The translations under genes and the position numbers were made by a program. From the NCBI GenBank assembly GCA_014728225.1, contig WJLX01000002.1, positions 1 through 33,398 of the forward strand: 33,398 nucleotides of DNA. The letters run 5' to 3'. The DNA comes from Candidatus Coatesbacteria bacterium (lineage in GTDB: Bacteria; RBG-13-66-14). This document shows, piece by piece, positions 1,543 to 9,635 of this stretch. A model generated the notes under the pieces. The model had not been told where the DNA came from, did no database searches, and was given only the letters and a program-made list of their open reading frames with translations. Within the stretch, counting starts at the first letter, position 1; each line of letters begins with the position of its first letter.

Positions 1543-3390
1543 ATGACGACCGAAATCAGCCGCATCAGAAACTTCTCGATCATCGCCCACATCGACCACG
1601 GGAAGAGTACCCTGGCCGATCGGATGCTCGAGCTCACCGGCACCGTCGACAAGCGCAAGATGCAGGAACAGGTCCTGGACACCATGGAGCTGGAGCGCGA
1701 GCGCGGCATCACCATCAAGGCCCAGAACGCCCGGATGAGCTTCACCGCCGCCGACGGGCGGACCTACGAGCTCAACCTGATCGATACCCCGGGCCACGTG
1801 GATTTCTCCTACGAGGTTTCGCGGGCTCTGGCGGCCTGCGAGGGCGTCCTCCTCGTCATCGACGCCACCCAGGGCGTCGAGGCCCAGACCGTGGCCAACA
1901 TGTACCTGGCCGCCGAGCACGACCTGGTGATCATCCCGGTCATCAACAAGATCGATCTGGACACCGCCCGACCGGAACACGCCGCCGAGGAGGCGCTGAG
2001 CCTGCTGGGCGACCCCGAATCCCCCTTCTTCTTCACCAGTGCCAAGACGGGCGAGGGCGTCGCCGGGCTGCTCCAGGCCGTCGTCGACCTCGTCCCGCAG
2101 CCGACGGGCGAGCTGGACGCCCCGCTGCGCGCCCTGGTCTACGACGCCTTCTACGATGACTACCTCGGGGTGATCACCGCCCTGCGCGTCGTCGACGGCG
2201 AGCTGTCCGAGGGCGACGAGATCGAGTTCCACGCTCACGGCGGGCGCTACACCGTCTCCGACGTCGGCTACTTCGCCGTGGATCGGCGCCACGTCGACAC
2301 CCTGACCGCCGGCGAGGTGGGTTACTTCACCGGTGCCGTCAAGGAGCTCGGTCAGGTACGCATCGGCGACACTCTGGTCCACGCGGGCCGGCGCGACAAG
2401 GTCCAGCGACTGCCCGGCTATGTCGAGCCGAAGCCCGTCGTCTTCTGCGGTCTCTACCCCACCGAAAACGATGACTACGACCTGCTGAAGAAGGCCCTGC
2501 AGAAGCTGGCCCTCAACGACGCCAGCTTCACCGCCGAGCCCGAGACCTCGGAGGCCTTGGGCTTCGGCTTCCGCTGCGGCTTCCTCGGCATGCTGCACAT
2601 GGAGATCGTCCAGGAGCGTCTGGAGCGCGAGTACGACCTGGACCTCGTCGCCACCACCCCCAACGTCATCTACCGTATCAGCACCGCCGACGGCGAGGTC
2701 CGCGAGGTCCAGTCCCCCGTCGAGATGCCCGACTTCGGCGAGGTCGAGCAGGTCGAGGAGCCCTACATCCGGGCCACCATCGTCACCCCGCCCACCTACA
2801 TCGGCAACATCATGAAGCTCTGCGAGGAGAAGCGGGGCGAGTACGGCTCGACGGAGTACCTGGACCCGGAGCGGGTGATGCTGGTCTTCGACCTGCCCCT
2901 GGCCGAGGTGGTCCTCGATTTCTACGACCGGTTGAAGAGCTGCACCCGGGGCTACGCCTCCTTCGACTACGACATCATCGGCTATCGGGCCAACGAACTC
3001 GACAAGCTCGAGCTGCTGGTCAACGGCCAGCCCGTCGACGCCCTTTCCGTGATTATCCACAAGGACAAGGCCTACCAGTACGGGCGCAACCTGTGCCTCA
3101 AGCTGCAGAAGCTCATCCCGCGCCAGCAGTTCGATGTCGCCGTCCAGGCCAAGCTCGGCGGGCGGATCATCGCCCGCGAGACCGTCAAGGCCCTGCGTAA
3201 GGACGTCACCTCGAAGTGCTACGGCGGCGACATCACCCGCAAGCGCAAGCTGCTGGAGAAGCAGAAGAAGGGCAAGCGGCGGATGAAGATGGTCGGCACC
3301 GTAGAGATCCCCCAGCGGGCCTTCATGAGCGTCCTGGGCGTCGAGGACGACCCCCACGAGATCAAGCAGAAGTACGGCAAGGGGCGCTAG
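1543..3390 (+). CDS. lepA: Elongation factor 4 (LepA), ribosomal back-translocase GTPase
   Basis: This 615-residue protein is the usual LepA length. LepA/EF4 is a membrane-associated translational GTPase that binds the ribosome and acts on stalled or misassembled states. The G1 motif AHIDHGKST is at residues 15-23. DTPGHVDFSYEVSR (G3) and NKIDLD (G4) follow, then the EF-G-like domains. The LepA-specific C-terminal domain is rich in Lys/Arg (RKRKLLEKQKKGKRRMK) and ends EIKQKYGKGR. The ATG at 1543 is chosen because the G domain begins directly after it and the in-frame TGA at 1537-1539 blocks any extension. There is no strong ribosome site. Instead three copies of its first 20 codons lie in tandem upstream, so initiation may depend on coupling or on leader structure. 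A hairpin terminator follows. Confidence 0.97.
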   Translation: MTTEISRIRNFSIIAHIDHGKSTLADRMLELTGTVDKRKMQEQVLDTMELERERGITIKAQNARMSFTAADGRTYELNLIDTPGHVDFSYEVSRALAACEGVLLVIDATQGVEAQTVANMYLAAEHDLVIIPVINKIDLDTARPEHAAEEALSLLGDPESPFFFTSAKTGEGVAGLLQAVVDLVPQPTGELDAPLRALVYDAFYDDYLGVITALRVVDGELSEGDEIEFHAHGGRYTVSDVGYFAVDRRHVDTLTAGEVGYFTGAVKELGQVRIGDTLVHAGRRDKVQRLPGYVEPKPVVFCGLYPTENDDYDLLKKALQKLALNDASFTAEPETSEALGFGFRCGFLGMLHMEIVQERLEREYDLDLVATTPNVIYRISTADGEVREVQSPVEMPDFGEVEQVEEPYIRATIVTPPTYIGNIMKLCEEKRGEYGSTEYLDPERVMLVFDLPLAEVVLDFYDRLKSCTRGYASFDYDIIGYRANELDKLELLVNGQPVDALSVIIHKDKAYQYGRNLCLKLQKLIPRQQFDVAVQAKLGGRIIARETVKALRKDVTSKCYGGDITRKRKLLEKQKKGKRRMKMVGTVEIPQRAFMSVLGVEDDPHEIKQKYGKGR

Positions 3391-5250: not shown

Positions 5251-6270
5251 TCACGGGTATTTCAGCCGGAACTTCTTGCGGTAGTAGTAGCGCGTCAGGC
5301 AGATCACCAGGCCGAGGAAGAGCAGGAACCAGGGGTGGAGCACCCCGGCGGCGACGGCGTAGAGCAATGTCGTACCCTGGTAGGCCAGCTTGACGTGTTT
5401 ACGCTTGCCCCAGAGGGCGACGACGAAGAGGGGCAGGCAGACGACCCCGGCGACGAGGGCCGGTCGGTTGAGCCGGAGCAGTGCGGCGGTGACGCTGCCG
5501 GCCTGCAGGGTCAGGGCCAGCCAGCGGGTGAGGGCGGGGCCGCAGGTCACGGCGGTGGTGCGCTCGCCGGATTCCCGGTCGCCGGCGATGTCGACGACGG
5601 TGGTCAGGGCGAAGACGGCGCCCACGGCCAGCATGTAGGGCAGGGCGGTCAGCCAGAAGTCGGGCTGGAACTCGTGGACGATGACGTAGCCGATGGCGAC
5701 GTTGAAAAAACCGTTGCCGAAGGCGTTGGCGGCTATGTCGAGCAACGGTTTGCCCTTGAGCTTGACCGGCGGGGTGTTGTAGGCGAAACCCAGGGCGATC
5801 GAGGCGGCGACGATCCAGAGGTAGTCCCAGTCGGCGAAGTACAGGGCGCTCGCCAGGGCCAGGGCCTGGAGGATTATCTGGTAGGTCCAGGCGGCCCGGC
5901 GGGAGATGTAACCGTCGCAGACCAGGAACAGCTTACGGTTGCGGCGGTCGGTCTCGGCGTCATTGAGCTGGTTGTTGACGTAGATCCCGCCGACCAGCAG
6001 GGTGTAGGCGACGAAGCCGATCAGCAGATCGAGATCGGGCAGCAGTTGCTCGGTCCAGCGGTAGACCCCGGCGGATTGGAGGCCGTGGTAGTGGCCCAGC
6101 AGCAAGAACAGCCAGACGGGGATCAGGATCATCGGCCGCAGCAGGAAGAAGTAATCCAGCAGGGCGAACCAGCGCGGCAGGCCGAGGCCGCGGTTGGTCT
6201 TGGGCCGCTCGAAGGGCACCTCGCCATCGCCGTAGAGCGGTTGGCGGTCTGGTGGTTCGGGGATGCTCAT
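5251..6270 (-). CDS. UbiA-family prenyltransferase
   Basis: This 339-residue integral membrane protein belongs to the family that transfers polyprenyl groups to aromatic or other acceptors inside the membrane. The first Asp-rich motif is NQLNDAETD (N100, D104, D108) and the second is DIAGDRESGERTT (D227, D231). These bind Mg2+ and the prenyl diphosphate. Between and after them lie about eight or nine hydrophobic segments, and the C-terminus is basic (RYYYRKKFRLKYP). The ATG at 6270 was preferred; a GTG six codons upstream is also open and neither has a clear ribosome site. No quinone, heme or archaeal-type lipid genes lie beside it, so the acceptor cannot be named. The gene stands alone between degraded regions. 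Confidence 0.85.
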   Translation of the reverse strand: MSIPEPPDRQPLYGDGEVPFERPKTNRGLGLPRWFALLDYFFLLRPMILIPVWLFLLLGHYHGLQSAGVYRWTEQLLPDLDLLIGFVAYTLLVGGIYVNNQLNDAETDRRNRKLFLVCDGYISRRAAWTYQIILQALALASALYFADWDYLWIVAASIALGFAYNTPPVKLKGKPLLDIAANAFGNGFFNVAIGYVIVHEFQPDFWLTALPYMLAVGAVFALTTVVDIAGDRESGERTTAVTCGPALTRWLALTLQAGSVTAALLRLNRPALVAGVVCLPLFVVALWGKRKHVKLAYQGTTLLYAVAAGVLHPWFLLFLGLVICLTRYYYRKKFRLKYP

Positions 6271-6330
6271 CGGGGGCGATGATAGCACAGTCGGCCGGTC
6301 TCGGGGAGGGCGGATGTTCGTCCCGGGTAC

Positions 6331-6466: not shown

Positions 6467-6589
6467 GGATCGGTTAGCGCTGGTGTCTGTCACTCGAAGC
6501 GAGCTGAAGCCTTGAAACCTTTGGTGAGTTGCGATGCGGACGGCGTACATCGCTGTTCCAGCAGATTCGGCTAACAAGCAGGGGGCTTG

Positions 6590-6595
6590 TATAAT
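6590..6595 (+). promoter_or_regulatory. Promoter -10 for the trp leader
   Basis: A perfect TATAAT lies 15 nt upstream of the leader-peptide ATG at 6611. No good -35 is visible at 16-18 bp spacing. Transcription would start near 6602, leaving a very short 5' end before the leader peptide. Confidence 0.45.
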
Positions 6596-6610
6596 GAAAC
6601 CGCTTCTGCT

Positions 6611-6712
6611 ATGCTTTCGGCACTCATGACGCGACAATCCGACAGCTTCGTCTTGGGCGCCCGGCGCTGGTGGACCGTGAAACCGGTCGACCCGCGCATC
6701 GTCACGCCCTGA
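6611..6712 (+). CDS. trp leader peptide with tandem Trp codons
   Basis: This is a 33-codon frame (28 codons from the second ATG at 6626). Its interior reads GARRWWTVKPVDP, with two adjacent TGG codons at 6668-6673, and it ends at TGA 6710-6712. Trp is rare, so a WW pair in a short peptide just upstream of terminators and a tryptophan synthase gene is the classic sign of ribosome-mediated attenuation. The WWTxxP pattern recalls known trp leader peptides. No Shine-Dalgarno sequence is visible. With the -10 at 6590 the message would begin about 9 nt before the ATG, so translation may be nearly leaderless. Confidence 0.75.
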   Translation: MLSALMTRQSDSFVLGARRWWTVKPVDPRIVTP

Positions 6713-6741
6713 CGCAGCATCCAGAGCGCTGAGAGCAACGA

Positions 6742-6766
6742 GGTCGGCCCCGGGCCGGCCTTTTTT
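6742..6766 (+). terminator. Attenuator terminator 1 before trpB2
   Basis: A GC stem (GGTCGGC with GCCGGCC around CCCGG) is followed directly by TTTTTT at 6761-6766. It begins 30 nt after the leader-peptide stop. Confidence 0.85.
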
Positions 6767-6780
6767 GCACCCCCCGGCCC
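6752..6780 (+). promoter_or_regulatory. Candidate antiterminator pairing
   Basis: GGGCCGG (6752-6758, from the 3' arm of terminator 1) can pair perfectly with CCGGCCC (6774-6780, from the 5' arm of terminator 2). This pairing excludes both terminators at once, giving a plausible read-through state. Confidence 0.5.
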
Positions 6781-6801
6781 TGCAATGGTGCCGGGTTTTT
6801 T
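6773..6801 (+). terminator. Attenuator terminator 2 before trpB2
   Basis: A 6-bp stem (CCCGGC with GCCGGG) with an 11-nt loop is followed by TTTTTT at 6796-6801. It ends 41 nt before the trpB2 ATG, so most initiated transcripts must pass two terminators to reach the gene. Confidence 0.75.
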
Positions 6802-6842
6802 CTTACCATCCGTCACCCATAAAACCGAAGGAGAGCGAACCG

Positions 6843-8207
6843 ATGGAAAACCGACGCTATCTGCTGGAGAACCGCGACCTGCCCGACCGTTGGTACAACG
6901 TGGTCCCCGACCTGCCCGACGCCCTGCCGCCCATCCTCGACCCCGCCGACGACACCCCGCTGACGCCGCAGGCCCTGGCCCCCCTGTTTCCCGGGGAGCT
7001 GATCCGGCAGGAGGCCGCCGGGGAGCGCTACGTGACCATCCCGGAACCGATCCGCGACGTGCTGGCCGTCTGGCGTCCCACGCCCCTGGTGCGGGCCCGG
7101 GGTCTGGAGCGGGCGCTGCGGACCCGCGCGCGCATCTACTACAAGTACGAGGGGGTCAGCCCCGCCGGCAGCCACAAGACCAACACCGCCGTGGCCCAGG
7201 CCTACTACAACCGGCGCGAGGGCGTCCGGCGACTGGCGACGGAAACGGGGGCCGGACAGTGGGGGGCGGCCCTGGGCTTCGCCTGCGCCCAGTTCGACCT
7301 CGAACTCAAGGTCTACATGGTCCGCTGCAGCTACGAACAGAAACCCTACCGCCGGGCGCTGATCGAGACCTACGGCGCCGAGATCGTCTCCTCGCCCAGC
7401 CCGGACACGGTCTTTGGCCGCCGGGTGCTCGATGAGACCCCGGACACGCCGGGTTCCCTGGGGATCGCCATCAGCGAGGCCGTCGAGGATGCCGCCGGGC
7501 ACGAGGACACCCGCTACGCCCTCGGTTCGGTGCTCAACCACGTCCTGTTGCATCAGACGGTCATCGGCCAGGAAGCGCTGCAGCAGTTCCAGCGCGCCGG
7601 GGACTTCCCCGATGTGGTCGTCGGCTGCTGCGGCGGGGGCTCCAACTTCGCCGGCCTGGCCACACCCTTCCTGCCCCGGATCCTGGCGGGCGAAGGACCC
7701 AGGTTGGTCGGCGTCGAGCCCTGCAGTTGCCCGACCCTGACCCGGGGACGTCGAGCCTACGACTTCGGTGACGTGGCCCGGCTGACCCCGCTGCTCCACA
7801 TGCACACCCTGGGCAACGGCTTCATACCCCCGGCCATCCACGCCGGCGGGCTGCGCTACCACGGCATGGCGCCCATCGTCAGCGCCATGCTGGACGCCGG
7901 GCTGGTCGAGGCCGTCAGCGAGCACCAGACGGACTGCTTCGCCGCCGGGGTGCTGTTCGCCCGGACGGAGGGCTTTCTGCCGGCGCCGGAATCGACCCAC
8001 GCCGTGCGGCGGGCGATCGTCGAGGCCCGGCGTGAGCCCGGACGGGAGCAGGTCATCCTGATCGGCCTGTCCGGTCACGGCCTGCTGGACCTGGCCAGTT
8101 ACGGTCGCTACTTCGCCGGTGAACTGGAGGACTACGATTACCCGGCCGAGCAGATCGAGCGGGCTCTCAAGGGCCTGCCGCCGGTCAGGGTCACCGATCC
8201 GGTTTGA
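6843..8207 (+). CDS. trpB2: Tryptophan synthase beta chain, TrpB2 type
   Basis: This 454-residue PLP enzyme condenses indole with serine to give tryptophan. The length and the N-terminal extension (about 75 residues before the core) are those of the TrpB2 class, which lacks the usual TrpA contacts. The PLP lysine is K112 in SPAGSHKTNTA. The ammonia/substrate loop reads ETGAGQWG (TrpB1 has ETGAGQHG), and the phosphate-binding Gly-rich loop is CCGGGSNFAG. The start at 6843 has a good ribosome site (AAGGAGAG); an upstream in-frame ATG at 6765 lies inside the terminators and is rejected. No trpA or other trp gene is in the window, so the enzyme probably salvages indole or works apart from a TrpAB complex. 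Expression is likely controlled by the attenuator upstream. Confidence 0.95.
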   Translation: MENRRYLLENRDLPDRWYNVVPDLPDALPPILDPADDTPLTPQALAPLFPGELIRQEAAGERYVTIPEPIRDVLAVWRPTPLVRARGLERALRTRARIYYKYEGVSPAGSHKTNTAVAQAYYNRREGVRRLATETGAGQWGAALGFACAQFDLELKVYMVRCSYEQKPYRRALIETYGAEIVSSPSPDTVFGRRVLDETPDTPGSLGIAISEAVEDAAGHEDTRYALGSVLNHVLLHQTVIGQEALQQFQRAGDFPDVVVGCCGGGSNFAGLATPFLPRILAGEGPRLVGVEPCSCPTLTRGRRAYDFGDVARLTPLLHMHTLGNGFIPPAIHAGGLRYHGMAPIVSAMLDAGLVEAVSEHQTDCFAAGVLFARTEGFLPAPESTHAVRRAIVEARREPGREQVILIGLSGHGLLDLASYGRYFAGELEDYDYPAEQIERALKGLPPVRVTDPV

Positions 8208-9414: not shown

Positions 9415-9486
9415 AGCGGGGTACCGGGATCGAACCGGTGACGTTCAGCTTGGGAAGCTGACATTCTACCACTGAATTAACCCCGC
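9415..9486 (-). tRNA. tRNA-Gly (CCC)
   Basis: The minus strand folds as a 72-nt tRNA. The acceptor stem is GCGGGGT/ACCCCGC with discriminator T, as usual for Gly. The D-arm is short (TTCAGTGGTAGAA). The anticodon loop TTCCCAA sits on the stem TCAGC/GCTGA, and the T-arm holds GGTTCGATCC. CCA is not encoded (CAA follows). Confidence 0.95.
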
Positions 9487-9550: not shown

Positions 9551-9635
9551 GCGGTTCGTTAGCGGTTCGTTAGCGGTTCGGTTGTGGTTCGGTTGTGGTT
9601 CGGTTGTGGTTCGGTTGCGGTTCGGTTGCGGTTCG
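9551..9635. repeat. 11-nt tandem repeat, about 7.7 copies
   Basis: The unit GCGGTTCGTTA (first two copies) drifts to GTGGTTCGGTT and then GCGGTTCGGTT, all at exactly 11-nt spacing. It is non-coding. It lies between tRNA-Gly and the promoter of the envelope locus. Confidence 0.95.

Follow-up and report, generated by a model that had tools for sequence, protein, structure and literature searches.

A probable ribosome-mediated transcription attenuator with two predicted terminators precedes a stand-alone trpB2 gene in a Coatesbacteria bacterium

Transcription attenuators with tandem tryptophan codons are classical elements of trp operons, as in Escherichia coli. The locus described here, which lies in a window of 33,398 nucleotides (the whole stretch of DNA analysed, from contig WJLX01000002.1 of a Candidatus Coatesbacteria bacterium), raises the question of whether such a switch can also govern a gene, trpB2, that stands alone. 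An original prediction, drawn from the sequence itself, had proposed that it does so by way of a short leader peptide and two terminators. The analysis reported here agrees in substance: a ribosome-mediated transcription attenuator very probably makes expression of trpB2 depend on how much charged tRNA-Trp is available, by a mechanism that is more intricate than the one first proposed.

The encoded protein belongs to the same enzyme family (TIGR01415 / NF009057) as other bacterial TrpB2 proteins, which have been termed indole-scavenging enzymes, for example in Geobacter (PMC2700814). As had been claimed, this trpB2 is a lone gene, being the single trpB-like match found in its genome (G000). 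Searches for trpA, trpC (IGPS), trpD and trpE (anthranilate synthase N-terminal domain) returned nothing above the cut-off in this genome or in that of a relative from another genus (G006), whose completeness is 97% and 99%, respectively; the same searches matched 14 of 14 control genomes each time. Because these four genes were not found, TrpB2 alone most likely converts imported indole to tryptophan, and it is probably an indole-salvage enzyme. With regard to tryptophanase, the strong PF01212 matches have an aldolase-like length, a judgement made on length. The leader of trpB2 is preceded by a divergently oriented UbiA-like ORF (5251-6288, minus strand), and the hairpins described below are thus without an evident upstream client gene on the trpB2 strand. 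A UbiA-like prenyltransferase gene also adjoins the leader in G006 (locus L084, 7657-8781, minus strand; identified from its C-terminal residues alone), where it lies upstream on the same strand as trpB2 rather than divergently. Elsewhere in the window, an 87-bp tandem repeat at 1251-1602 (four copies, 94% alike) extends across the beginning of the lepA ORF (1543-3390), and an 11-bp repeat, GCGGTTCGGTT, is present in 7.7 copies at 9551-9635, near a tRNA gene (9415-9486, minus strand).

Between the UbiA-like ORF and trpB2, the elements named in the original prediction (an ORF with TGGTGG at 6668-6673, a TATAAT at 6590-6595 and a pair of hairpins with six T after each) all lie where they had been placed, and only the reading of some of them changes. 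The ORF of 33 codons from 6611, which reads MLSALMTRQSDSFVLGARRWWTVKPVDPRIVTP* and ends at the stop codon 6710-6712, is indeed present, but its start is more likely the ATG at 6626, which leaves 28 codons. Similarly, the TATAAT exists but is less favoured as a -10 element, as it has no good -35 box and overlaps the -35 hexamer of a candidate promoter that can be aligned between the two genomes (TTGTAT-17-TATGCT in the window, TTGCCA-17-TATAGT in G006, with TGC before the -10 in both). The leader ATG falls 8-10 nt past this -10 in both genomes (8 nt in G006), a spacing that, together with the aligned promoter, favours initiation at 6626 on a nearly leaderless mRNA. On this comparison, the leader probably starts at ATG 6626 rather than 6611 and its promoter probably differs from the TATAAT first proposed. 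A consensus promoter scan of the window listed no promoter here, and no Shine-Dalgarno sequence is recognisable upstream of the leader ORF.

The leader ORF is followed by two hairpins in series (Table 1). The first, T1, has a 10-bp stem (6740-6749/6753-6762) with a predicted stability of -20.4 kcal/mol, a value that includes a few flanking pairs, whilst the second, T2, has an 8-bp stem (6773-6780/6787-6795) of -16.2 kcal/mol. Compared with dinucleotide shuffles, these stabilities correspond to z = -3.5 and z = -2.1, respectively. A simple terminator scanner listed neither hairpin, and the evidence for both comes from the folds. The original prediction had noted that GGGCCGG in the 3' arm of T1 is the exact reverse complement of CCGGCCC in the 5' arm of T2, which was confirmed. 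It had omitted the classical switch of overlapping 1:2, 2:3 and 3:4 pairings, found here in both genomes. In the fold of the untranslated transcript, region 1 pairs with region 2 over 5 bp (6673-6677 with CGGTC at 6684-6688) and this helix overlaps the Trp codons; the same GACCG...CGGTC pairing is predicted in G006. In the fold of a transcript carrying a stalled ribosome, region 2 instead pairs with region 3 over 8 bp (6685-6692 with 6742-6749; 10 bp in G006), and this predicted helix begins just past a ribosome positioned on the last Trp codon. An alternative 4:5 pairing of 7-8 bp between the 3' arm of T1 and the 5' arm of T2 is available in both genomes (8 bp in G006). The predicted folds thus contain two mutually exclusive sets, 1:2/3:4/5:6 and 2:3/4:5.

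Table 1. Features of the trpB2 leader and related elements (window positions unless a contig is named)
Feature	Position	Strand	Description
Candidate promoter	6587-6615	+	-35 TTGTAT 6587-6592, 17-nt spacer, extended -10 TGC-TATGCT 6607-6615 (-10 hexamer 6610-6615)
Leader peptide ORF	6626-6712	+	MTRQSDSFVLGARRWWTVKPVDPRIVTP, 28 codons from the probable ATG 6626; 33 codons if started at 6611
Tandem Trp codons TGG TGG	6668-6673	+	Three in G006; TGGTGGACCGT common to both leaders
Region 1, GGACCG	6672-6677	+	Directly after the Trp codons; would be covered by a ribosome stalled there; predicted to pair with region 2
Region 2, CGGTCGACC	6684-6692	+	Predicted antiterminator 5' arm; alternative partners region 1 and the T1 5' arm
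Region 3, GAGGTCGGCC	6740-6749	+	T1 5' arm or antiterminator 3' arm, from folds; 10-base identity with G006
Region 4 (T1 3' arm)	6752-6762	+	5' part GGGCCGG 6752-6758 can pair with region 5
T tract of terminator 1	6761-6766	+	Six T
Region 5 (T2 5' arm)	6773-6780	+	CCGGCCC 6774-6780 complementary to 6752-6758
Region 6 (T2 3' arm)	6787-6795	+	From fold; T2 hairpin kept in G006 with different sequence
T tract of terminator 2	6796-6801	+	Six T
trpB2	6843-8207	+	454 aa, PLP-dependent TrpB-like enzyme; NF009057 685 bits, TIGR01415 594 bits
Possible trpB2-trpS pair of G010	C59 8-838 and 1076-2323	-	

In the mechanism that we infer from these parts, a ribosome supplied with ample tryptophan would pass the Trp codons and proceed to the stop codon, where it would cover region 2, so that T1 (3:4) and T2 (5:6) could both form and transcription would end before trpB2. 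When tryptophan is low, the ribosome would stall at the tandem Trp codons and cover region 1, leaving region 2 to pair with region 3; this antiterminator would open T1, and the freed region 4 would then pair with region 5, disarm T2 and allow RNA polymerase to reach trpB2. The original prediction held that one pairing removes both terminators. The 4:5 pairing on which it relied does exist, but it becomes possible only after 2:3 has opened T1, and the arrangement would therefore be a relay and not a single pairing. The sensing of charged tRNA-Trp fits an enzyme that consumes indole to make tryptophan in a cell from which the pathway is missing, and the cell probably activates indole salvage for tryptophan only during a shortage of charged tRNA-Trp.

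The strongest evidence comes from the second genome. The phylum is sparsely sampled (14 genomes were examined) and, among the family genomes examined, only G006 shares this trpB2, with 78% identity. Absence of a WW ORF and of terminators from this site in relatives had been named as evidence against the original prediction; G006 has a WWW ORF and two hairpins there, and the order of its elements (candidate promoter, RRWWWTV ORF, hairpin 1, hairpin 2, SD, trpB2) matches that of the window. Its leader, ATG...CTG CGC CGG TGG TGG TGG ACC GTT...TAG, encodes MKTNTPVQTTLNDKALINPALSNLRRWWWTVSRRSISTG (the ORF MKTN...LRRWWWTVSRRSISTG) and is homologous to that of the window, the Trp codons lying in the context RRWWWTV instead of RRWWTV. 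After the ORF come GAGGTCGGCC-GAC-GGGCCGGCC, GCGGCCCGTACACCACGGGCCGCTTTTT and then GGAG with the trpB2 start. Four words are common to both leaders in the same order, TGGTGGACCGT, CGGTCGA, GAGGTCGGCC and CGGGCCGGCC, and the sequence between the shared words is largely diverged and hard to align; a MAFFT alignment of the whole leaders misplaces region 2. Shared words of at least 7 bases that are collinear up to the trpB2 start amount to 60 letters, as against a mean of 8.8 in local shuffles, none of 1000 of which reached 60. As only two leaders are known, covariation is not countable. A pattern search for further copies in the phylum gave, beyond the two trpB2 leaders, matches that read like coding sequence, and these were set aside.

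The same comparison bears on the nature of the signal that is read. Both peptides contain RRWW(W)TV, as might be expected of a TnaC-like arrest peptide, whose nascent chain senses free tryptophan or indole. However, the two peptides diverge right after TV (KPVDPRIVTP in the window, SRRSISTG in G006) and differ in the number of Trp residues (two and three), and the codon phase of CGGTCGA is 1 in the window but 0 in G006. Preservation of this word in different reading frames indicates that it is the RNA that is conserved there, not the peptide. This speaks for selection on RNA pairing and fits codon-based stalling; an arrest peptide is accordingly very unlikely.

A rival explanation would be ordinary termination, or insulation, by the two hairpins in front of trpB2, with the WW ORF a chance frame. 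Hairpins built on GGTCGGCC/GGCCGACC do occur near other genes in G006, and the shuffle values of the single helices are modest. Nevertheless, the gene upstream of the window's leader is on the other strand, and the WW/WWW ORF with RR..TV, regions 1 and 2 and both hairpins have been kept in another genus. Nor is the combination a background feature of trpB2: within 350 bases upstream of 80 trpB2 loci of other phyla, WW ORFs were present at three and none was accompanied by a terminator (0 of 80). In G010 and G013, more distant members of the phylum whose trpB2 is about 50% identical, there is no WW ORF, and a promoter of the TTGACA type lies a short way from trpB2. Ordinary terminators before a chance frame are thus improbable, and an attenuator is the preferred reading.

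Folding of the growing transcript, with a ribosome assumed either on the last Trp codon (stalled) or at the stop codon, reproduces the two states in both genomes. In the stalled case, 2:3 appears once region 3 has emerged, and 2:3 + 4:5 is the minimum free energy fold once region 5 has emerged; T1 is briefly the best fold when it is complete and region 5 is still absent. With the ribosome at the stop codon, T1 forms, followed by T1 + T2. Even in the stalled case, T1 + T2 is finally more stable (-49.3 kcal/mol for the transcript to 6803, compared with -42.5 kcal/mol for 2:3 + 4:5 to 6782); the best full-length fold is therefore T1 + T2, and the switch must be kinetic. The pairing segments are GC-rich and GGCC is self-complementary. 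Segment shuffles reached the length of the 2:3 helix in 3.1% of cases for the window (8 bp) and 0.26% for G006 (10 bp), shuffling of the T2 arm produced a helix as long as 4:5 in 9% of cases for the window and 3% for G006, and 14-17% of shuffled region-2 segments also displaced T1 in the fold. The main weight of the case is carried by the conserved, ordered set of elements, above that of single helices.

How the work of termination is divided between the two hairpins is a separate matter. The his attenuator alternates between stems AB, CD and EF and stems BC and DE (PMC10989985), and the trpB2 leader could follow the same logic, T2 being the working terminator and hairpin 1 serving mainly as a relay that keeps region 4 from region 5, like the his CD stem. 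This variant is tentative, though it has real points in its favour: hairpin 1 of G006 has a weak U tract (CUUUCC), whereas T2 there has UUUUU, and the 4:5 pairing is possible in both genomes. Against it, hairpin 1 of the window has a perfect six-T tract and should terminate by itself. The fuller proposal, a two-terminator relay in which opening of the first disarms the second, acting on a stand-alone salvage gene from a nearly leaderless leader mRNA in a phylum member without a trp pathway, is held here with about even confidence.

Other tryptophan-responsive systems offer little competition to attenuation by a translating ribosome. T-box elements and TRAP control trp genes in Firmicutes, and one of these could in principle act here. 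In an Rfam search of the leader, however, no family, T-box and trp_leader included, scored above the gathering threshold, the hits in 6560-6860 being chance ones with E = 1.3 or more, and the few GAG triplets that follow the window's stop codon have no counterpart in G006; either system is highly implausible at this locus.

A further tryptophan-related leader was observed at trpS, where a 22-23-codon upstream ORF with one invariant Trp, some 145-225 nt ahead of the trpS anchor motif, is conserved in five genomes of three genera of the family. These ORFs read MRYLFLPTGPVTVAFDWRSSPAP, MRYIFPPSGPIAVAFDWRSSPRR, MRYRYLPLSFLAVAYCWRTSRQ, MRYRYLPRKFLAVAYCWRTSRQ and MRYRYLPHSFLAVAYCWRPSRQ and their loci are L102 (G000), L101 (G006), L119 (G003), L120 (G005) and L127 (G004). 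No obvious T-tract terminator follows the ORF in G000 or G006. That residues on either side of the lone Trp are conserved suggests a leader of the nascent-chain or translational kind, and this may be the family's second leader responsive to Trp. In G010, a member of another family, trpB2 is immediately followed by a second copy of trpS in the same orientation (locus L098).

With trp operon attenuators, the leader shares the tandem-UGG ORF, the overlapping 1:2/2:3/3:4 pairings and, ahead of the first gene, a GC-rich terminator that ends in a U tract. It differs from them in that trpB2 is monocistronic and its genome has no detectable trpE, trpD, trpC or trpA, in the two terminators in series and in the leader ORF without a recognisable SD. 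Attenuators with Trp codons have been predicted in Actinobacteria (Corynebacterium, Streptomyces), one of them before trpB2A of C. diphtheriae, and share with the window's leader complementary gGCC-rGCy-GGCC triples (PMC1262725). The C. diphtheriae example is the closest precedent by gene name, but it belongs to a biosynthetic operon with trpA (PMC1262725). The his attenuator resembles the leader in its six-segment relay (off, 1:2, 3:4, 5:6; on, 2:3, 4:5), a structural analogy for which no common descent is claimed; the leader, in contrast, has Trp codons instead of seven His codons, and its middle stem, being followed in the window by six U, should be a terminator as well. In Chlamydia trachomatis, a leader peptide was predicted in the trpR-trpB gap of trpRBA, without firm experimental support (Merino and Yanofsky 2005, per PMC6504234). 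The likeness is that an attenuator was predicted ahead of a tryptophan synthase gene in an indole-salvaging tryptophan auxotroph, whereas the chlamydial operon includes trpR and trpA and the gene is the usual trpB (PMC6504234). A literature search, limited and not amounting to proof, returned no paper that joins tandem terminators, a leader peptide and attenuation. What is new here is the client gene with its context, together with two serial terminators linked by the relay.

If the proposal is true, a form of control familiar from complete biosynthetic operons, attenuation by codon sensing, also governs one salvage enzyme on its own, the cost of TrpB2 being paid only under starvation. It would also mean that a bacterium apparently unable to make tryptophan de novo encounters indole in nature. 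The leader would then represent a compact two-terminator relay and would extend trp attenuation to a sparsely sampled phylum.
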